Assembly (NCBI RefSeq): GCF_017916255.1
Contig: NZ_CP072827.1
Coordinates: 4,365,501 to 4,429,500 of the forward strand
Length of the DNA stretch: 64,000 bases
Direction: 5' to 3'
Source: Streptomyces mobaraensis NBRC 13819 = DSM 40847
GTDB taxonomy: Bacteria > Actinomycetota > Actinomycetes > Streptomycetales > Streptomycetaceae
A program made the translations under genes and the position numbers. How positions within the stretch are numbered: the stretch's first letter is position 1; every line of letters starts with the position of its first letter. The notes under the pieces are model-generated. The model was not told the DNA's origin, made no database searches, and was given only the letters and a program-made list of their open reading frames with translations. This document shows positions 75 through 38,526 of this stretch, in pieces.

Positions 75-797
75 TCAGCCGGCGAGTTCCCGGGCCGCCT
101 CCGTCAGGTCCTTGGCGGTGTCGATGGCCCGCCAGTAGGCGCCGTGCGGCAACGGGTAGCCGGCCAGCCGCCGTTCCCGGGCCAGGCGGGGGAAGGTGGT
201 GCGCTCGTGGTCGCCGCGCTCGGGCAGCAGCTCGGCGAAGCCCGCCGAGAAGACGTAGACGCCCGCGTTGATCAGGTAGGGCGAGGGCGGGGCCTCGATG
301 AAGTCCAGGACGTGCCCGAACTCGTCGGTCTCGACCGCGCCCCAGGGGATCCGGGGCCGGGCCAGGGCGAGGGTCGCGGTGGCGTCCCGCTCGTGGTGGA
401 AGGCGGCCATCTCGCGGAGCGAGAACCGCGTCCAGATGTCCCCGTTGGTGGCGTACCAGGGCCGGTCCGGGTGGGGGAGCGAGGCGGCGGCGTGCCTGAG
501 GCCGCCGCCGCGGCCGAGCGGCTCCTTCTCGACCACCGTCGTCACCCGCAGCGGGAGGTCGGCCGACGCGAGCCACGCCTGGAGCACCTCGGCGAGGTGG
601 CCGCAGGAGACGACGGCGTCGGTGACGCCCTCGGCGGCCAGCCAGGCCAGTTGGTGGCCGATGATCGGCATGCCGGTGCCGGGGATCTCGACCATCGGCT
701 TGGGGCGGTCGTCGGTGTAAGGGCGAAGCCGTGACCCCTGGCCTCCGGCCAGGATCACGGCTTGCGCGGGTGTGGGGACGGGGTGCGTGCCGGTCAT
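75..797 (-). CDS. Sugar nucleotidyltransferase (NDP-sugar pyrophosphorylase family)
   Basis: A 240-residue protein of the NTP_transferase family, which joins a sugar-1-phosphate to a nucleoside triphosphate to make an activated NDP-sugar in the cytoplasm. The N-terminus carries the signature AVILAGGQGSRLRPYTDDRP followed by KPM, the nucleotide-binding G-x-G-x-R...KP motif. NGDIW near residue 120 is the metal-binding Asp region. It is as short as stand-alone transferases such as RmlA-like or mannose-1-phosphate types and has no left-handed helix domain. An in-frame GTG lies three codons upstream of the ATG chosen here. It is a single-gene unit ending at a strong hairpin. The sugar cannot be read from sequence. 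Confidence 0.82.
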   Translation of the reverse strand: MTGTHPVPTPAQAVILAGGQGSRLRPYTDDRPKPMVEIPGTGMPIIGHQLAWLAAEGVTDAVVSCGHLAEVLQAWLASADLPLRVTTVVEKEPLGRGGGLRHAAASLPHPDRPWYATNGDIWTRFSLREMAAFHHERDATATLALARPRIPWGAVETDEFGHVLDFIEAPPSPYLINAGVYVFSAGFAELLPERGDHERTTFPRLARERRLAGYPLPHGAYWRAIDTAKDLTEAARELAG

Positions 798-863
798 GCC
801 CCGCACGATATGCCGTGCCGCGGGGTGCGGTGCGACCGGCCGCCGCCGGGGGCGGGAGGGCCG

Positions 864-1280
864 TCAGTGGCCCTGGGCCACCCCGGAGGCGTACGAGGTG
901 TCGCAGACCGGGCGCGAGTACGCCTGGGCCTTCTTCGCGGAGTGGTACTTGGCGACGGCGGCCTGGCCGAGGACGCGGGCGATGTCGACGCAGTAACGGG
1001 CCAGCGAGGGACGGCCGTTGGTGGCGACCTGGAGGTGGGTCAGGGCCACTCCGGGGTTCTTCTCCTGGAGCTCCGTGAGCAGCTTGTCGCGCAGCACCTC
1101 ATGCGGGGCGCGGGCCCTGGCCTGGCTGGAGGCGGCGTCCGAGGACGCGGTGAGCACCTGCGACTCGGCGTTGGGCGCCGCCCACGGGACCCGGGTGACG
1201 GCGAGGGTCCCGGAGAGCACCATGACGACGGGGAGGACGAGGGCGAGGGTTCTGCCGATGCGGCGGGCGGCCTGGTTCAT
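864..1280 (-). CDS. Small exported or membrane-anchored protein, function unknown
   Basis: A 138-residue protein with a basic N-terminus (NQAARRIGR) followed by a hydrophobic segment around residues 10-30, so it is a signal-anchor or secreted protein. The remainder is hydrophilic and contains two cysteines (ARYCVDIARV and SRPVCDTSY) that could form a disulphide outside the cell. I do not recognise the family. GC3 is high and the frame is clean, so the gene is probably real. It is separated from the nucleotidyltransferase by about 65 bases, and a 14 bp palindrome lies 44 bases upstream. Confidence 0.6.
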   Translation of the reverse strand: MNQAARRIGRTLALVLPVVMVLSGTLAVTRVPWAAPNAESQVLTASSDAASSQARARAPHEVLRDKLLTELQEKNPGVALTHLQVATNGRPSLARYCVDIARVLGQAAVAKYHSAKKAQAYSRPVCDTSYASGVAQGH

Positions 1281-1323
1281 GCCGCAGATGGTAGCGAGGC
1301 GTAATGAGACCGCGACATTTAGT

Positions 1324-1337
1324 CACCCGATCGGGTG
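1324..1337. promoter_or_regulatory. 14 bp palindrome upstream of the small exported protein
   Basis: CACCCGATCGGGTG is a perfect palindrome in a relatively AT-rich stretch between the start of the exported-protein gene and the terminator of msiK. Its position fits an operator, but no regulator is adjacent and the pattern could be chance. Confidence 0.25.
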
Positions 1338-1444
1338 GCATTACCTCGGCCCTTCGGTGGGAAGGGTTGACGCCCGGGCGGCCGGACCTGGGGCGGGCGG
1401 CCCGAAATCGGTGACGCGTCCGGTTGACGGGCCGTGAGGGCCGC

Positions 1445-1470
1445 CGTGCCGCCCGCGCCGGGGCGGCACG
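1445..1470. terminator. Terminator hairpin after msiK
   Basis: A 10 bp stem (1445-1454 with 1461-1470) around a 6-base loop lies immediately downstream of the msiK stop codon on the minus strand. Further partial pairing extends the stem outward. Confidence 0.6.
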
Positions 1471-1480
1471 ACGGCGTGAA

Positions 1481-2617
<1,137 letters not shown>

Positions 2618-2679
2618 GGTGGTGGGTCCCTTCACCGGCAGGAACGTGCCGGACGATCCGAGTAGAGGGAGCGGTGCTG

Positions 2680-2695
2680 AGTGGTCCAGTCCAAT
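2680..2695. promoter_or_regulatory. Candidate DasR operator (dre-like) upstream of msiK
   Basis: AGTGGTCCAGTCCAAT agrees at 13 of 16 positions with the dre consensus A(C/G)TGGTCTAGACCA(C/G)T. It sits 63 bases upstream of the msiK start, where a promoter is expected. DasR is the GntR-type GlcNAc repressor of Streptomyces. This is assigned by motif match only. Confidence 0.45.
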
Positions 2696-2815
2696 GTGGA
2701 CGGGATGCGGTGACGGTACCTGGGGAGCGGGCCGTTGTCAGCAGGTCGCGGTCGCGAAAATTGGGGGGAGCGGCGGGGCTGTCTCCGGTTAGACTGCTTC
2801 CGCGCGCTGCCGCGT

Positions 2816-2889
2816 GCCGCCTTAGCTCAGCTGGCCAGAGCACCTGTCTTGTAAACAGGGGGTCGTCGGTTCGAATCCGACAGGCGGCT
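2816..2889 (+). tRNA. tRNA-Thr (anticodon TGT)
   Basis: The cloverleaf folds fully: acceptor stem GCCGCCT/AGGCGGC, D stem GCTC/GAGC, anticodon stem CCTGT/ACAGG with loop CTTGTAA, T stem GTCGG/CCGAC with loop TTCGAAT, discriminator T. The anticodon TGT reads the rare codon ACA. The 3' CCA is not encoded. A strong hairpin follows 20 bases downstream. Confidence 0.97.
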
Positions 2890-2908
2890 TCTTGCCGCGC
2901 ACAGCACG

Positions 2909-2932
2909 AAGCCCGGGCCTTGGCCCGGGCTT
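2909..2932 (+). terminator. Terminator of the tRNA-Thr gene
   Basis: AAGCCCGGGCC and GGCCCGGGCTT form a perfect 11 bp stem with a 2-base loop, followed by TGTTGT. It is a canonical intrinsic terminator placed just after the tRNA. Confidence 0.85.
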
Positions 2933-2936
2933 TGTT

Positions 2937-3065
2937 GTGCCCCGGTCCCGCCCTTTCACCGTTTCTTGCGGGGGCAAGCCCCCGCACCCCCGAAGCGCCC
3001 TGCGGGCTCTCCCAGAGGGGCCTGGGGGCGCAGCCCCCAGGAAACGGCGAAAGGGTGGGAAGGGG
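2937..3065. repeat. Dispersed intergenic palindromic repeat, copy A (partial)
   Basis: This stretch opens with GTGCCCCGGTCCCGCCCTTT and closes with its near-complement (GGAAACGGCGAAAGGGTGGG). It has internal inverted repeats built on GCGGGGG...CCCCCGC and CCTGGGGGC...GCCCCCAGG. The same outer modules recur near 29.1, 42.6 and 56.0 kb. This copy lacks the central module built on the CCGGACGGGC arms. It lies between the tRNA terminator and the end of the MMPL gene and may also terminate that gene. Confidence 0.75.
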
Positions 3066-3071
3066 GCGGAA

Positions 3072-5240
3072 CTACCGCCGACCGGAGTACGAGGCGTGGT
3101 CCTCGTACGAGTCCGTGCCGGCGTAGGGGGTCGGCTCCGCCTGACGCGGAGCGTCCTGGTGGCCCGGCCACCACGCCTTGTGCCCGAGCAGCGACGTGAC
3201 CGTCGGCACGAGCAGCATGGCCATCACGAACGCGGTGAGCAGGATGCCGAAGGCGACCGCGAAGCCCATCTGCTGGAGCATGGAGTTCTCGGCGAGCAGC
3301 AGCACACCGAACGTACCGGCGAGGATGATCGCCGCGGAGGCGACCGTCGGGGCCGACTGGGCGACCGCGGTGCGGATGGCCTCGCGCGGGGCCACGCCCT
3401 TGCGGACCTCCTCACGGAGGCGGGCGACCATCAGGATGTTGTAGTCCGTGCCGATCGCCACCACGAAGAGGTAGATGATGATCGGCAGCATGAACAGCAT
3501 GCCGTCCTCGCCCTTGAGGTCCTGGAACAGCCAGACCGTGGAGCCGAGGGTGGCGCCGAAGCCGAGGGCGACGGCGATCATCAGGTACAGCGGGGCGACC
3601 AGGCTGCGCAGCAGCAGGCCCAGGATCAGCATGATCGCCAGGCCGGCGACCGGGAAGACGACCTTGTAGTCGTGCTGGACGGCGTTCTCGATGTCGGTGA
3701 GGACCGCCGAGGTGCCGCCCACCAGGGCCTCGCTGCCCTTCGGGGCCGCCTGGTGCGCCGTGTCGCGCAGCTCGCCGCCGACGAGCTTGATGGCCTCGTC
3801 GTGGTTGGGCTTGGCCTTGGTGACCACGCTGAACTGGACGACGGACCCGTCCTTGCTGGGGACGGCCGGACTGACCTTGTCCACGCCCTTGACGGCCGCG
3901 AGCTTGCCGCGGAACGCCTCCAGCTCGCCCTTGTCGAGCCGTGCCCCGTCCTTCGCCTTGACGAACACCATGGCCGGGTCGGCCTGGCCGGCGGAGAAGC
4001 CCTTCTGGAGGTCCTTCATCGCCTGGACGGACTCCAGCTTGTCGGGCAGCTGGCTGTCCATGTCCCACTGCGACTTGAAGCCGAAGGCGCCGACCGCGAG
4101 GACGGCGAGCACCACCGTGGAGAGCGCCGCCACGATGCCCGGGCGCCGGGAGACCAGGCCGCCGACCGCGTTGGCCGTGCGGTTCTTCGGGGTCTTCTTC
4201 CACGCCTTGGACGGCCAGAACGCCTTGGTGCCGAGCAGCGAGAAGACGGCGGGGACCAGCGTCAGGGCGGCGATCAGGGTCACGCCCACGGCGATCGCCA
4301 GGGACGGGCCCAGGGCCTTCATCATGCCCATCGTGGACAGCAGCAGGGCCAGGAACGAGGCGATGACCGCGCCGGCGGCGGAGGCGATGGTCTCGCCCAC
4401 CCGCGCGACCGCCTCGGCCAGGGCCGTCTTGGGCTCCTCACCCTTGCGCAGCAGCTCGCGGTAGCGGAACAGCAGGAAGAGGATGTAGTCGGTGCCCACG
4501 CCGAAGAGCACCACGATGAGGATCGGGGTGACGCTGGCGTCGGCCTTCAGCCCGCCGACGTCGGCCGCCGTGCCGATGAGGCCGTTGGCCACCGAGGTGA
4601 CGAGCAGGATGATCAGGACCGGCAGGATGGCGATGAGCGGGCTGCGGAAGATGGCCAGCAGCAGCACGATGATGAGGACCAGCGTGGCCATCATGATCAT
4701 GCCGTCGGTGTCGCCGGACTGCTCCTTGGAGTCGAGGTTGGACGCCGCCGAGCCGGTGACGCCCAGCTTCAACTGGGTGCCCTTCAGCAAGGGTTTGGCG
4801 TCCTTGCGGAGGGACTTGATCGACTCCATGACGGTGTCGTCCGACCAGTTCTTCTCACCGGAGTAGATGTTGGCCAGGGCTATCTCGCCGTTGGGCGAGA
4901 CCGCTTCCGGCCCGGTCGTCACCTTGGATATCTTCTTGTAGTGCTTGTCCTGGAGGGCGGCGGCGACCTTCGCCACGTCCTGCTTGTCCTGGGCGGTGAG
5001 CTTCCCCCCGTCGGAACGCTTGAAGACGCCCACGGCCGCGGCCTGTTCGTCCTGGGGGAACGCCTTCTCCTGGACCTTGCCCGCCTGCACGGACTCGTAG
5101 TGGGACGGAAGGAACTCCGCCTGGTCCGTGGTGGACTTCAGACCCGGCGCCAGGACACCGAGGGCCACGGCTGCCACGACCCAGGCCAGGATCGTGAGCC
5201 AGGGCCGGTGGACGGCGAACCGCCCGACTCGTCGGAACAT
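3072..5240 (-). CDS. MMPL-family (RND superfamily) membrane transporter
   Basis: A 722-residue polytopic membrane protein of the MMPL/ActII-3 type, expected to export lipids, antibiotics or other hydrophobic compounds using the proton gradient. An N-terminal membrane helix (residues 13-35) precedes an extracellular domain. Two related membrane halves then follow, each carrying the GTDY signature (FGVGTDYILFLLFRYRELL and IGTDYNILMVARLREEV), as expected for the duplicated RND fold. The ATG at 5240 (MFRRVGRFAVHRP) has AAGGGGGAG upstream. The longer frame to 5357 is a non-coding extension. The C-terminus is short, polar and tyrosine-rich. A perfect palindrome lies about 115 bases upstream and may bind a regulator encoded elsewhere. 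Confidence 0.9.
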   Translation of the reverse strand: MFRRVGRFAVHRPWLTILAWVVAAVALGVLAPGLKSTTDQAEFLPSHYESVQAGKVQEKAFPQDEQAAAVGVFKRSDGGKLTAQDKQDVAKVAAALQDKHYKKISKVTTGPEAVSPNGEIALANIYSGEKNWSDDTVMESIKSLRKDAKPLLKGTQLKLGVTGSAASNLDSKEQSGDTDGMIMMATLVLIIVLLLAIFRSPLIAILPVLIILLVTSVANGLIGTAADVGGLKADASVTPILIVVLFGVGTDYILFLLFRYRELLRKGEEPKTALAEAVARVGETIASAAGAVIASFLALLLSTMGMMKALGPSLAIAVGVTLIAALTLVPAVFSLLGTKAFWPSKAWKKTPKNRTANAVGGLVSRRPGIVAALSTVVLAVLAVGAFGFKSQWDMDSQLPDKLESVQAMKDLQKGFSAGQADPAMVFVKAKDGARLDKGELEAFRGKLAAVKGVDKVSPAVPSKDGSVVQFSVVTKAKPNHDEAIKLVGGELRDTAHQAAPKGSEALVGGTSAVLTDIENAVQHDYKVVFPVAGLAIMLILGLLLRSLVAPLYLMIAVALGFGATLGSTVWLFQDLKGEDGMLFMLPIIIYLFVVAIGTDYNILMVARLREEVRKGVAPREAIRTAVAQSAPTVASAAIILAGTFGVLLLAENSMLQQMGFAVAFGILLTAFVMAMLLVPTVTSLLGHKAWWPGHQDAPRQAEPTPYAGTDSYEDHASYSGRR

Positions 5241-5353
5241 GGTGTGGAGCTCCCCCTTGGAATTGCGTGGATCTATCGGAACACTGAGTGGATACTGATC
5301 GGGTGGTGCACGGGTTCGACGCGGCCCGGCGGAGGGTACGGATGTCCGAACGG

Positions 5354-5374
5354 GCATCCCTACGCTAGGGATGC
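5354..5374. promoter_or_regulatory. Perfect palindrome in the MMPL/M24 divergent promoter region
   Basis: GCATCCCTA-cgc-TAGGGATGC has 9 bp arms and a 3-base spacer. It lies between the divergent MMPL transporter and M24 peptidase genes, nearer the transporter. The length and symmetry resemble a TetR or PadR operator, but no regulator gene is adjacent. Confidence 0.45.
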
Positions 5375-5437
5375 TCTTTACCTGGGTCCAACGATTACTC
5401 GAGGAATCAGGGGAAAATCGGTCCTGGGGTGGGGTCG

Positions 5438-5457
5438 TCTCCTCCCCTCGGAGGAGA
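5438..5457. repeat. Short inverted repeat upstream of the M24 peptidase
   Basis: TCTCCTCC and GGAGGAGA form an 8 bp stem with a CCTC loop about 65 bases before the peptidase start. It could be an operator or a 5' UTR hairpin. No further evidence is available. Confidence 0.3.
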
Positions 5458-5520
5458 GGCGTCTCACCCGTGGGGTAGAGATCACCTGCCGAACGCCTCC
5501 ACCCGGATTACGCTGCCCCC

Positions 5521-6657
5521 ATGGCGATCACGTCGATGGAAGCGTCCTCCCGCCCGCTGGGCCCGGAGCACTACGCGGCCCGGATGGAGCGCGCGGCCCG
5601 CTCCGCCGCCCAGGCCGGCATGGCCGGACTGATCATCGCGCCCGGCCCCGACCTGGCCTGGCTCTGCGGCTACCACCCGCCCGTCACCGAACGTCTCACC
5701 GCGCTGGTGGTGACCCCCGGCCGCAGGACGCTGCTGCTGGTCCCCGAGCTGGAGCGGCCCGACGCGGAAAAGGCGCCCGGCGCCCCGGCGTTGACCGTCG
5801 TCGGCTGGCGGGACGCCGAGAACCCCTACGACGCGCTCGCCGCGCACCTCGAACCGCAAGGCCGCTACGGGGTGTCCGACAACACCTGGGCGCTGCACCT
5901 GCTGGCCTTCCAGCGGCTGCGCCCCGGCGGGGCCCACGCCGCCCTGACCGAGGCGCTGCCCATGCTGCGCGCGGTCAAGGACGGGTACGAGGTCGAGCGG
6001 CTGGCGGCGGCGGGCGCGGCGGCCGACGCCACGTACGAGGAGATCGTCCGGCTGCCGTTCGCCGGGCGGCGGGAGCGCGAGGTGGCCGCCGACCTGGACC
6101 GGCTGCTGCGCGAGCACGGCCACCAGCAGGTGGACTTCACCATCGTCGGCTCGGGTCCCAACGGCGCCAATCCGCACCACGAGGCGGGGGACCGGGTGAT
6201 CCAGGACGGCGACATGGTCGTGATGGACTTCGGCGGCCTGATGGACGGTTACGGCTCCGACACCACCCGTACGGTGCACGTCGGGGAGCCGGGTGCCGAG
6301 GAGCGCAAGGTCCACGACCTGGTCCGGGAGGCGCAGCAGGCGGCGTTCGAGGCCGTCCGGCCGGGGGCCGCCTGCCAGGACGTCGACCGGGCCGCCCGCC
6401 AGGTGATCGCGCGCAACGGCTACGGCGAGTACTTCGTCCACCGGACGGGCCACGGGATCGGCGTCACCACGCACGAGCCGCCGTACATGGTCGAGGGCGA
6501 GCACCTGACGCTGGTGCCGGGGATGTGCTTCTCGATCGAGCCCGGGATCTATCTGCCGGGCCGGTTCGGGGTGCGGATCGAGGACATCGTGGTCTGCACG
6601 GAGGACGGCGGGCGGCGGCTGAACACGACGGGCCGGGAGCTGCTCGTCGTGGCGTGA
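5521..6657 (+). CDS. M24 family metallopeptidase (Xaa-Pro aminopeptidase-like)
   Basis: A 378-residue cytoplasmic enzyme with a creatinase/prolidase layout: an N-terminal creatinase-like domain (to about residue 150) and a C-terminal pita-bread peptidase domain. All five metal ligands of the M24 fold are visible: Asp in VMDFGG (about 236), Asp in YGSDTTR, His in RTGHGIG (about 309), Glu in FSIEPGIY (about 339) and Glu in RIEDIV (about 353). It should remove N-terminal residues ahead of proline from short peptides. It is divergent from the MMPL gene and convergent with the MFS gene, whose stop codon is only 8 bases away. Confidence 0.9.
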   Translation: MAITSMEASSRPLGPEHYAARMERAARSAAQAGMAGLIIAPGPDLAWLCGYHPPVTERLTALVVTPGRRTLLLVPELERPDAEKAPGAPALTVVGWRDAENPYDALAAHLEPQGRYGVSDNTWALHLLAFQRLRPGGAHAALTEALPMLRAVKDGYEVERLAAAGAAADATYEEIVRLPFAGRREREVAADLDRLLREHGHQQVDFTIVGSGPNGANPHHEAGDRVIQDGDMVVMDFGGLMDGYGSDTTRTVHVGEPGAEERKVHDLVREAQQAAFEAVRPGAACQDVDRAARQVIARNGYGEYFVHRTGHGIGVTTHEPPYMVEGEHLTLVPGMCFSIEPGIYLPGRFGVRIEDIVVCTEDGGRRLNTTGRELLVVA

Positions 6658-36498: not shown

Positions 36499-36663
36499 GT
36501 GAACGACTCCTCGCTTGTCACCGGTGTGTTGGTCCGTCTCGCGGTGCGGACCGGCCCTCTCGCCGTGCCGCACCTTCCGATACAGTCTTGAACAACGCGG
36601 AGCGCGCCCGTATGTCGGGGGTGCCGCGCGCACAAACGCCTGGGCCCCGCCCAGTGCCATACC

Positions 36664-36796
36664 GCTCATCCAGAGGGGCAGAGGGACACGGCCCGTTGAA
36701 GCCCCGGCAACCCTCCAGCCGGTCTCCTAGTGAGGCTCCCGGCGGGGAAGGTGCCAATTCCGTCTCGTGGCGAGGTTCGCCACGGGGAAGATGAGG
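36664..36796 (+). promoter_or_regulatory. SAM-I (S-box) riboswitch upstream of the thrC-like gene
   Basis: The characteristic S-box order is present. The P1 strand CTCATC (36665-36670) pairs with GATGAG (36790-36795). AGAGGGGCAGAGGGACACGG and the GAAGCCCCGGCAACC core follow, then a P3 hairpin, GGAAGGTGCCAATTCC, and a P4 hairpin (TCTCGTGGCGAGGTTCGCCACGG-type arms). The likely gene ribosome site (GGAGAAAGG) lies directly behind P1, so binding of S-adenosylmethionine could block translation. An ATG inside the 3' P1 strand (36791) is in frame with the gene. Confidence 0.93.
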
Positions 36797-36814
36797 AGAA
36801 AGGGCCTCGCCTCC

Positions 36815-38083
36815 ATGGCTGTGCAAGCCGTCGAACGCGCTACTTCCTTCGGTCCCGCCGTCGCGCTGTCCTGCCGCGAGTGCGGCGAGCGCGTCCCCCT
36901 CGGACCGGTCTTCGCCTGCACCTCCTGCTTCGGCCCGCTGGAGGTCGCCTACGAGCTGCCGCTCGGCGACCCCGAGGGCCTGCGGCGGCGCATCGAGTCC
37001 GGCCCCGCGAACATCTGGCGGTACGCGCCGCTGCTGCCCGTCCCCGCCGACGTCGCCTCCCGGCCCAACCTCCGGCCCGGCTTCACCCAGCTGGTCCGGG
37101 CCGACAACCTCGCCCGCGAGCTGGGCGTGACGGGTGAACTGCACGTCAAGGACGACTCCGGCAACCCCACCCACTCCTTCAAGGACCGCGTCGTCGCGGT
37201 CGCGGTGGAGGCGGCGCGCGCCTTCGGCTTCACCACCCTCTCGTGCTCCTCGACCGGCAACCTGGCCGGCGCGGTGGGCGCGGCGGCCGCCCGCGCCGGG
37301 CTCCGGTCCTGCGTCTTCATCCCACACGACCTGGAGGCCGGCAAGGTCGTCATGGCCGCCGTCTACGGCGGCGACCTCGTCGGCATCGAGGGGACGTACG
37401 ACGACGTCAACCGCTTCTGCTCGGAGCTCATCGGCGACCCGCTGGGCGAGGGCTGGGGCTTCGTCAACGTCAACCTGCGCCCCTATTACGGCGAGGGTTC
37501 CAAGACCCTCGCCTACGAGATCTGCGAACAGCTCGGCTGGCGGCTGCCCGACCAGCTCGTCGTCCCCATCGCCTCCGGCTCCCAGCTCACGAAGATCGAC
37601 AAGGGGCTGCGGGAGCTGATCGCCCTCGGGCTGGTGGAGGACCGCCCGTACCGGATCTTCGGCGCCCAGGCGGAGGGCTGCTCCCCGGTCTCCCGCGCCT
37701 TCAAGGACGGCCAGGACGTGGTGCGCCCGGTCAAGCCCGACACGATCGCGAAGTCCCTGGCCATCGGCAACCCGGCCGACGGGCCGTACGTGCTCGACAT
37801 CGCGCGGCGCACGGGCGGTGCCGTCGAGGACGTCACGGACCCGGAGATCGTGGACGCGATCCGGCTGCTCGCCCGTACGGAGGGCATCTTCGCGGAGACG
37901 GCCGGGGGCGTGACGGTGGGCGTGACGCGGAAGCTGCTGGAGGCGGGGGTGCTGGATCCCTCGCTGACGACCGTGGTGCTGAACACCGGGGACGGGCTGA
38001 AGACGCTGGACGCGGTGGCGGCGGGGCCGTCGGTGACGATCCGGCCGAGCCTGGGGGCTTTCCGGGAGGCGGGGCTGGGGTAG
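36815..38083 (+). CDS. thrC: Threonine-synthase-like PLP enzyme under SAM riboswitch control
   Basis: A 422-residue fold-II PLP enzyme. The N-terminal zinc ribbon has C20-x2-C23 and C35-x2-C38. The PLP lysine is K123 in GNPTHSFKDR, followed by the pyridoxal phosphate loop STGNLAGAVGAAAA, and TGDGLKTL lies near the C-terminus. Conventional annotation is threonine synthase acting on O-phosphohomoserine. The S-box in front and the sulfur-carrier gene behind both point to sulfur amino acids, so it may instead place sulfur on phosphohomoserine. ATG 36815 has GGAGAAAGG upstream. ATG 36791 in the riboswitch is an in-frame alternative. Confidence 0.9.
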   Translation: MAVQAVERATSFGPAVALSCRECGERVPLGPVFACTSCFGPLEVAYELPLGDPEGLRRRIESGPANIWRYAPLLPVPADVASRPNLRPGFTQLVRADNLARELGVTGELHVKDDSGNPTHSFKDRVVAVAVEAARAFGFTTLSCSSTGNLAGAVGAAAARAGLRSCVFIPHDLEAGKVVMAAVYGGDLVGIEGTYDDVNRFCSELIGDPLGEGWGFVNVNLRPYYGEGSKTLAYEICEQLGWRLPDQLVVPIASGSQLTKIDKGLRELIALGLVEDRPYRIFGAQAEGCSPVSRAFKDGQDVVRPVKPDTIAKSLAIGNPADGPYVLDIARRTGGAVEDVTDPEIVDAIRLLARTEGIFAETAGGVTVGVTRKLLEAGVLDPSLTTVVLNTGDGLKTLDAVAAGPSVTIRPSLGAFREAGLG

Positions 38084-38182
38084 GGGGAGCGGCCCCGGTC
38101 CCTCCCCCCAGAGGAGGCGCCCCCAACGGGCTGAATCGTGCACCCACGCACCACACCACTCACAAGAAAGCAGAGCACCCCC

Positions 38183-38458
38183 ATGAGCGTCACCGTCCGC
38201 ATCCCCACCATCCTCCGCACCTACACCGACGGCCGCGCCGAAGTCCCCGCCCAGGGATCCACCCTTTCCGAGGTGATCGGCGACCTGGAGAAGAACCACC
38301 CGGGCATCGCCGCCCGCCTCCTCGACGACGCCGGCAAACTGCGCCGCTTCGTCAACGTCTATGTCAACGACGACGACGTCCGCTTCGAGGGCGGTCTGAC
38401 GGCGGCGACCCCGGACGGCGCGGGCGTTTCGATCATCCCGGCGGTGGCGGGCGGCTGA
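38183..38458 (+). CDS. MoaD/ThiS/CysO-like sulfur-carrier protein
   Basis: A 91-residue ubiquitin-fold sulfur carrier. SVTVRIPTILRTYTDGRAEV opens the beta-grasp, NVYVNDDDVRFEGG is the central strand-loop and the protein ends exactly in VSIIPAVAGG. The terminal Gly-Gly is what MoeB-like enzymes adenylate and convert to a thiocarboxylate. The gene lies 99 bases after the thrC-like gene and before a strong terminator, so both are in one transcript from the SAM riboswitch promoter. It likely donates sulfur for homocysteine or cysteine synthesis. MoCo or thiamine roles are less likely here. Confidence 0.9.
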   Translation: MSVTVRIPTILRTYTDGRAEVPAQGSTLSEVIGDLEKNHPGIAARLLDDAGKLRRFVNVYVNDDDVRFEGGLTAATPDGAGVSIIPAVAGG

Positions 38459-38489: not shown

Positions 38490-38526
38490 GGAATCGCCCC
38501 GACCGCTAAGCGGACGGGGCGATTCC
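38490..38526 (+). terminator. Terminator after the sulfur-carrier gene
   Basis: A perfect 12 bp stem, GGAATCGCCCCG (38490-38501) with CGGGGCGATTCC (38515-38526), encloses a 13-base loop. It ends the riboswitch-thrC-carrier transcript. Confidence 0.85.

Follow-up and report, generated by a model that had tools for sequence, protein, structure and literature searches.

A putative metM-metO operon downstream of a SAM-I riboswitch in a Streptomyces-type genome and its relatives across Actinomycetota

The locus described here, from a Streptomyces-type genome, is very probably a metM-metO operon, which would form homocysteine from O-phosphohomoserine and a sulfur-loaded carrier protein. It is located in the window, that is, the whole stretch of 64,000 nucleotides that was analysed. 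In the proposed mechanism, MoeZ would adenylate the Gly-Gly end of the carrier MetO, leading to a thiocarboxylate; MetM, a paralogue of threonine synthase, would bind O-phosphohomoserine made by ThrB and eliminate the phosphate; and addition of the carrier sulfur at C-gamma would yield the homocysteine from which methionine is made. Plentiful SAM would shut the operon through the SAM-I riboswitch, the base stem of which abuts the ribosome-binding site, suggesting control at translation; both the sign and the mode of regulation are predictions for this species. The parts of the operon, their order, their conservation and the presence of a separate true ThrC can be read from the sequences; the roles of MoeZ and Mec and the C-gamma chemistry are what we infer.

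The MetM system is already known since 2024, when a Streptomyces MetM was reported to convert O-phosphohomoserine to homocysteine (Hasebe et al., 2024, Appl Environ Microbiol 90:e01247-24, as presented in the accessible part of PMC12172450), so that the finding is a correct rediscovery. The proposal of the earlier note, made from the sequence of this locus, that the apparent ThrC may use O-phosphohomoserine and a carrier thiocarboxylate to make homocysteine is thus supported by that report on Streptomyces albulus MetM and MetO, so far as the source was available, and by gene content. The useful extensions are the phylum-wide link between the SAM-I riboswitch, MetM and the carrier, the separation of MetM from ThrC, a compact gene cluster in another genome (L232), and carriers with blocked ends. 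An incomplete literature search found neither the phylum survey, nor the separating residues, nor the extended carrier ends, and no paper besides PMC12172450 that deals with MetM/MetO; the accessible part of PMC12452182 contains nothing on this operon.

Table 1. Features of the metM-metO operon (window coordinates), the mec-cysO-cysM cluster of the same genome and the L232 cluster (coordinates of that locus)
Feature	Position	Strand	Evidence or remark
SAM-I (S-box) riboswitch aptamer	36663..36797	+	RF00162, 79.7 bits, E 4e-17
P1 3' strand GATGAGGA leading into Shine-Dalgarno-like AGAAAGG	36790..36803	+	predicted translational expression platform
metM-like gene, 422 aa, putative O-phosphohomoserine-dependent homocysteine synthase	36815..38083	+	predicted function
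metO-like gene, CysO-family ubiquitin-like sulfur carrier, 91 aa	38183..38458	+	PF02597
Strong stem-loop 3' of metO	38490..38526	+	-32.7 kcal/mol, z -4.5
mec-cysO-cysM cluster	G000:C1:2804271-2806008	-	genome scan
Whole L232 cluster (genome G435)	79-5983		thiocarboxylate sulfur pathway in one run
L232 TauE-family permease			first gene of cluster
L232 Prok-JAB (JAMM) protease	878-1306
L232 ThiS domain fused to CysM-type enzyme	1296-2447
L232 MetM	2483-3730
L232 ThiS-family CysO/MetO-like carrier	3746-4030		end GGETDV
L232 ThiF-family E1	3975-4835
L232 NIL-domain protein, then PP-loop-type protein			after E1

The leader, taken for an S-box aptamer in the earlier note, matches the Rfam family RF00162 well above its gathering score (79.7 vs 44.4 bits, E 4e-17) and is the single SAM-I match in the whole host genome (7.57 Mb, one contig), located 5' of metM. 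The metM start codon (ATG at 36815) lies 17 nt 3' of the aptamer end, and 99 bases separate metM from metO. The fold-II PLP enzyme with a zinc ribbon that had been proposed is confirmed by the PALP fold (PF00291, E 8.7e-66) and a four-cysteine ribbon made of two CxxC pairs, as is the 91-residue ubiquitin-like protein with a Gly-Gly end by its ThiS domain (PF02597) and its C-terminal AVAGG. The claim of a terminator holds in part: a very stable hairpin follows metO, but it has no T-run, is for this reason absent from the terminator scan, and is perhaps a U-less transcription terminator. Elsewhere in the window there are an msiK RNA motif (2620-2677 on the minus strand; RF01747, 50.2 bits) and a tRNA gene (2816-2889 on the plus strand).

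MetM scores above the TIGR00260 thrC cut-off, and its SFKDR motif holds K123, which, by analogy with the family, is presumably the PLP lysine. The cysteines of the two CxxC pairs (C20, C23, C35 and C38) are invariant in all 81 aligned proteins, the MetM of this genome included; a match of this zinc ribbon to NinF was below the cut-off and was rejected. MetM is 36% identical to the ThrC of its own genome, and in a tree of 93 proteins, the root of which is not known, MetM (66 rows) and ThrC (26 rows) are found on separate sides with support of 99/99 and 100/100, such that the window protein does not group with the ThrC proteins of hom-linked thrC genes. Two ThrC rows (L174 and L177) with too few columns were dropped from the tree, and most column counts use 26 of the 28 ThrC rows. 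At least 12 alignment columns are fixed differently, some with one exception, between these 26 rows and the MetM proteins of 55 loci from outside the genus (hereinafter the deep set). These include V126-V127 after SFKDR in MetM vs GM in ThrC, L150 after STGN vs T, the phosphate loop A253-S254-G255 vs GNA, and R222 and Y225 vs N and R, with further separating columns at K260, E174, G365 and T397; positions 364-365 read GG in MetM and SA in ThrC. We take the separating columns to be located within or close to the loops that bind PLP and the substrate in ThrC, so that an altered outcome from the same substrate appears plausible. The residue H120, which looked specific for MetM in Streptomyces, is present in just 32 of the 55 deep MetM proteins and was discarded as a marker. 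With the ThrC entries 2zsj, 6cgq, 1uim and 2d1f, MetM shares the fold family, the PLP lysine and, as predicted, O-phosphohomoserine as the substrate, whereas it differs from them in the separating residues and in its place on the opposite side of the tree. A third threonine-synthase-like gene of this genome (G000:C1:5868527-5869369; L023, L113) has a zinc-ribbon-like start; its product (L023) falls below the TIGR00260 cut-off and forms a very long branch.

The best solved relative of MetO is 3dwg_C (4.7e-30), which we take to be the CysO chain. MetO is 58% identical to the CysO of its own genome and thus shows both features of the CysO family, namely similarity to CysO and a C-terminal Gly-Gly; the window carrier is paired with MetM rather than with CysM, and a cysO-cysM-mec cluster is present elsewhere in the genome. 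The window MetO ends exactly in GG. By comparison, residues after GG are found in 38 of the 79 MetO proteins from named loci (L032-L111, within the best 80 of at least 587 loci), a single Cys (GGC) in 36 of these, AV in one and AR in one. Similarly, 14 of the 44 carriers of the deep set extend past GG, two of them by a 14-residue tail, and the CysO of the genome studied here is encoded with a GGAR end. Such residues should therefore have to be trimmed before the E1 can act, and the Mec protease would be the obvious candidate for trimming the extended ends. The incomplete literature search revealed no mention of MetO ends extended past Gly-Gly.

The genes that would support this route are encoded elsewhere in the genome. 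A second operon with thrC, hom-thrC-thrB (hom and thrB being named by sequence and place), is located at about 5120501-5124371, so that the single thrC that would speak against the proposal of the earlier note was not found. The homologues of MoeB and Mec that the same note expected are present as one MoeZ and a single Prok-JAB/Mec-type JAMM protease, the latter next to CysO and a CysM-type enzyme. The genome encodes four ThiS-family carriers, and its one MoeZ and one Mec probably act on CysO as well as on MetO. Another protein with a ThiF domain (G000:C1:4963593-4964285, L014) obtains no NCBIfam name at E 1e-20 and could be another E1. No match to MetX was detected in the genome at E 1e-5 (among 14 control genomes, the search was positive in 7, without once exceeding its cut-off) and none to MetA/HTS (positive in 8 of 14 control genomes); against the proposal, a CGS/CGL-type enzyme is present, and another homocysteine route is therefore possible by gene content. 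This enzyme (4725719-4726837) is one of two full-length Cys/Met-metabolism PLP enzymes and scores above the cut-off of the cystathionine gamma-synthase model PRK07811; together with the cystathionine beta-synthase that is also encoded, it suggests reverse transsulfuration.

The scan for MetM relatives matched at least 594 stretches, at least 587 of which encoded a relative, and the best 80 (79 from Streptomyces and one from Streptantibioticus) were used; judging from these relatives, the genome is taken to belong to Streptomyces. In 79 of these 80 named Streptomycetaceae loci, metO directly follows metM on the same strand, and in the remaining one (L034) the contig ends 73 nt after the gene. 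The aptamer core GGTGCCAA precedes the first ATG at least 55 nt downstream by 61-67 nt in all 80 loci, and all 12 leaders from this set that were submitted to Rfam match RF00162. Because the core spacing is kept in 80 of 80 and the carrier is the next gene in 79 of 80 of these best loci out of at least 587, the arrangement of riboswitch, metM and metO is not due to chance. At any genome position, SAM-I was detected in 197 of 199 genus genomes, as one copy in each positive genome apart from G097, G102 and G108, which have two; the genomes without it are G001 (79% complete) and G072 (98% complete, 1140 contigs). MetX-like genes are present in 59 of the 199 genomes at E 1e-30, five of these by weak matches only and none above the curated cut-off. 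With MetX-like genes missing in the other 140 and MetM labelled as threonine synthase, homocysteine synthesis looks like a gap in the genus.

Control of the operon in Streptomyces is, judging from the leaders, most likely translational, since there is no space for an intrinsic terminator between the aptamer base stem and the ATG. The 3' strand of P1, GATGAGGA, is present in all 81 leaders with an ATG 13-19 nt downstream, a spacing on account of which a transcriptional terminator platform was rejected; its 5' partner CTCATC, with AGAG within the next 4 nt, is found in all 81 as well, and the Shine-Dalgarno-like AGAAAGG of the window starts at the last aptamer base. This reading agrees with the accessible part of PMC1262725, according to which the base stem of a riboswitch in Actinobacteria overlaps directly with the start of translation. 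As the strands of the P1 stem are invariant, they provide no covariation test; when the leader was folded with P1 and without it, neither an on/off difference nor an exposure of the Shine-Dalgarno sequence was clear. A candidate ON-state hairpin, GAGG/CCTC around the Shine-Dalgarno sequence, was set aside, its arms being near-invariant in the leaders listed, hence without covariation, and its folding unclear.

Leaders from outside the genus bear on the sign of the regulation. Of the 46 deep leaders, 14 have, according to a script, a terminator-like hairpin with a T-run 3' of the aptamer (a raw count without a shuffled control, in which L213 is doubtful as its hairpin overlaps the aptamer). In five of the 46 (L196, L202, L230, L236 and L239, all of the single family f27), the P1 strand is complementary over 7-9 bases to the 5' arm of the terminator, a pairing that would be as in the classical S-box off-switch. 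SAM-I riboswitches are known as a family in which SAM represses. Taken together, the hairpins and the pairing in these leaders and the behaviour of the riboswitch family imply that SAM should repress metM, a logic that fits methionine and not threonine, as the earlier note had argued. SCO4293 is presumably the S. coelicolor orthologue of metM. Binding of ArgR has been reported upstream of this putative threonine synthase gene (PMC3293853, accessible part) and may be a second control layer at the operon. In S. lividans, the 2021 reannotation has a SAM riboswitch before SLIV_16930-SLIV_16925 and files it under 'threonine biosynthesis' (PMC8079986, accessible part).

Across the phylum, a MetM-type match at E 1e-70 is present in 139 of 396 Actinomycetota genomes, namely 12 of the genus (this genome included), 2 from elsewhere in the class and 125 from other classes; the 257 genomes without a match at this threshold include at least 20 of the same class as the window. 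The deep set was drawn from 55 of the 127 positive genomes outside the genus, with completeness of at least 96%; a further nine genomes that were as complete, one of which has 7% contamination, did not enter the set. Of the 55 deep loci, 46 carry SAM-I upstream on the strand of metM (the weakest match has 44.6 bits and one aptamer is cut by the contig end), and two of the nine loci without a riboswitch (L218 and L242) have no upstream sequence. A CysO/MetO-like carrier follows on the same strand in 44 of the 55, with a 4-nt overlap between the metM stop and the carrier start in 12 of these 44. In the other 11, a carrier was not detected downstream by tblastn at E 1e-6, nor was a small ORF ending in Gly-Gly within 900 nt; two of the contigs extend for no more than 85 and 751 nt beyond the gene. 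Nine of the 11 have the riboswitch. Eight loci (L188, L197, L210, L216, L217, L223, L224 and L238) combine SAM-I and MetM with no recognised carrier in about 3.4 kb downstream; here, the carrier must be encoded elsewhere or be too diverged, or else sulfide must be used.

True ThrC loci provided the control. Among the 30 best-scoring thrC-family loci, two were MetM and 28 ThrC; hom is adjacent in all 28 of the latter, a carrier in none of them (flanks of 1.5 kb), and no riboswitch was found in the 20 that were scanned. The SAM riboswitch and the carrier thus go with MetM and not with ThrC. In 55 of 56 genomes, this genome among them, a second thrC-family match exceeds the cut-off. The exception is G464, where the single match is of the MetM type, with riboswitch and carrier (L235), so that this MetM may have to make threonine as well as homocysteine.

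At L232, the genes of the putative pathway, including the E1 and a JAMM protease, are encoded in one cluster (Table 1), and no riboswitch was found at this locus. The nearest relatives of the L232 MetM in a protein search (72-75% identity) are mostly metagenomic proteins, and the names given are mostly Omnitrophica, suggesting that this MetM type exists also outside Actinomycetota.

Several other readings of the locus have to be weighed. According to database annotation, MetM would be a second, redundant threonine synthase, and the cotranscribed carrier would serve another pathway. MetM does score above the TIGR00260 thrC cut-off, all names shown among its 120 best database relatives are threonine synthase, and a cyanobacterial homologue has threonine synthase activity in vitro (PMC12172450, accessible part). 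Nevertheless, the true thrC sits with hom and thrB across a well-supported branch, the SAM riboswitch and the carrier accompany MetM and not ThrC, and the 12 or more columns by which the 26 ThrC rows differ from the 55 deep MetM proteins, several of them in the PLP loops, are hard to reconcile with redundancy, which we regard as very improbable. We assign an equally low probability to the CGS-type enzyme (4725719-4726837) being the main homocysteine maker from phosphohomoserine, as in plants, with MetM in a minor role. The score above the PRK07811 cut-off and the failure to find MetX or MetA that would supply acyl-homoserine are compatible with that scenario, but metM carries the genome's single SAM-I riboswitch, the cystathionine beta-synthase suggests reverse transsulfuration, and in S. 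albulus it is MetM that prevents methionine auxotrophy (PMC12172450, accessible part).

An unlikely, although more credible, possibility is that MetM makes homocysteine from O-phosphohomoserine with free sulfide, the carrier being an accessory or belonging to CysM, thiosugar or cofactor pathways. Na2S was used to mimic MetM activity (PMC12172450, accessible part), and the 11 of 55 deep loci in which no carrier was found include eight with a riboswitch and at least 3.4 kb of sequence after the gene. Sulfide alone would leave unexplained why the carrier adjoins metM in 79 of the best 80 of at least 587 loci and in 44 of 55 deep loci, with the 4-nt stop/start overlap in 12 of these 44, and why an E1 and a JAMM protease share the MetM cluster in L232.

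Among the characterized systems, MetM/MetO of S. albulus is the closest by description: it likewise comes from Streptomyces and comprises an upstream SAM riboswitch, a ThrC-like homocysteine synthase and a carrier gene, and no difference from the present operon is known, the likeness being one of description and not of sequence. The S. albulus MetO reportedly works as a thiocarboxylate, and metO is said to adjoin metM. The accessible part of PMC12172450 cites the sulfur-carrier gene metO, places a SAM riboswitch upstream of metM (Hasebe et al., 2024) and mentions MetM homologues in cyanobacteria. One of these, from Microcystis, is 51.6% identical to S. albulus MetM, is encoded next to a metO-like gene and shows threonine deaminase along with threonine synthase activity in vitro; according to the authors, it was not seen to act fully as MetM in cells (PMC12172450, accessible part). 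Given that this homologue makes threonine, a side activity of MetM, or a dual role in G464, is possible. CysO/CysM/Mec of Mycobacterium tuberculosis resembles the present system in a carrier of the same family and a fold-II PLP enzyme, with one Mec-type protease and MoeZ here; it differs in that the product is cysteine, and the genome studied here has its own cysO-cysM-mec cluster in addition. A protein thiocarboxylate route to homocysteine is reportedly used by Wolinella succinogenes, where the enzyme is said to be of the MetY type (fold I) and the substrate an acyl-homoserine; the likeness to the present system lies in the thiocarboxylate and the product, whereas a ThrC-type fold-II enzyme and phosphohomoserine would be employed here. 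This HcyS/HcyD/MetY system goes back to Krishnamoorthy and Begley (2011), cited in the accessible part of PMC5764234.

Beyond the operon itself, a broader reading can be offered tentatively, as one that may well prove wrong: MetM/MetO might be an ancient homocysteine synthase, widespread in Actinomycetota, found also in lineages such as Omnitrophota and mislabelled 'threonine synthase', which shares its E1 and JAMM protease with CysO, and Mec might both cut a carrier-homocysteine conjugate and mature the carriers in many species. Mec is known to cut the CysO-cysteine product, which has the same GGC end. Since roughly every second MetO protein from the best 80 of at least 587 Streptomycetaceae loci has a blocked end, mostly GGC, Mec might be needed for the maturation of MetO in many species.

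The split between ThrC and MetM provides a good pair for studying how one PLP fold picks the addition of water vs sulfur. MetM is recognisable by its place in the tree, the separating residues, the riboswitch and the carrier, and in this way would fill the homocysteine gap in many Actinomycetota. Acidimicrobium ferrooxidans has been listed among the organisms without a known homocysteine pathway (Price et al., 2018; PMC5764234, accessible part), and MetM is a candidate for the homocysteine enzyme of this organism.
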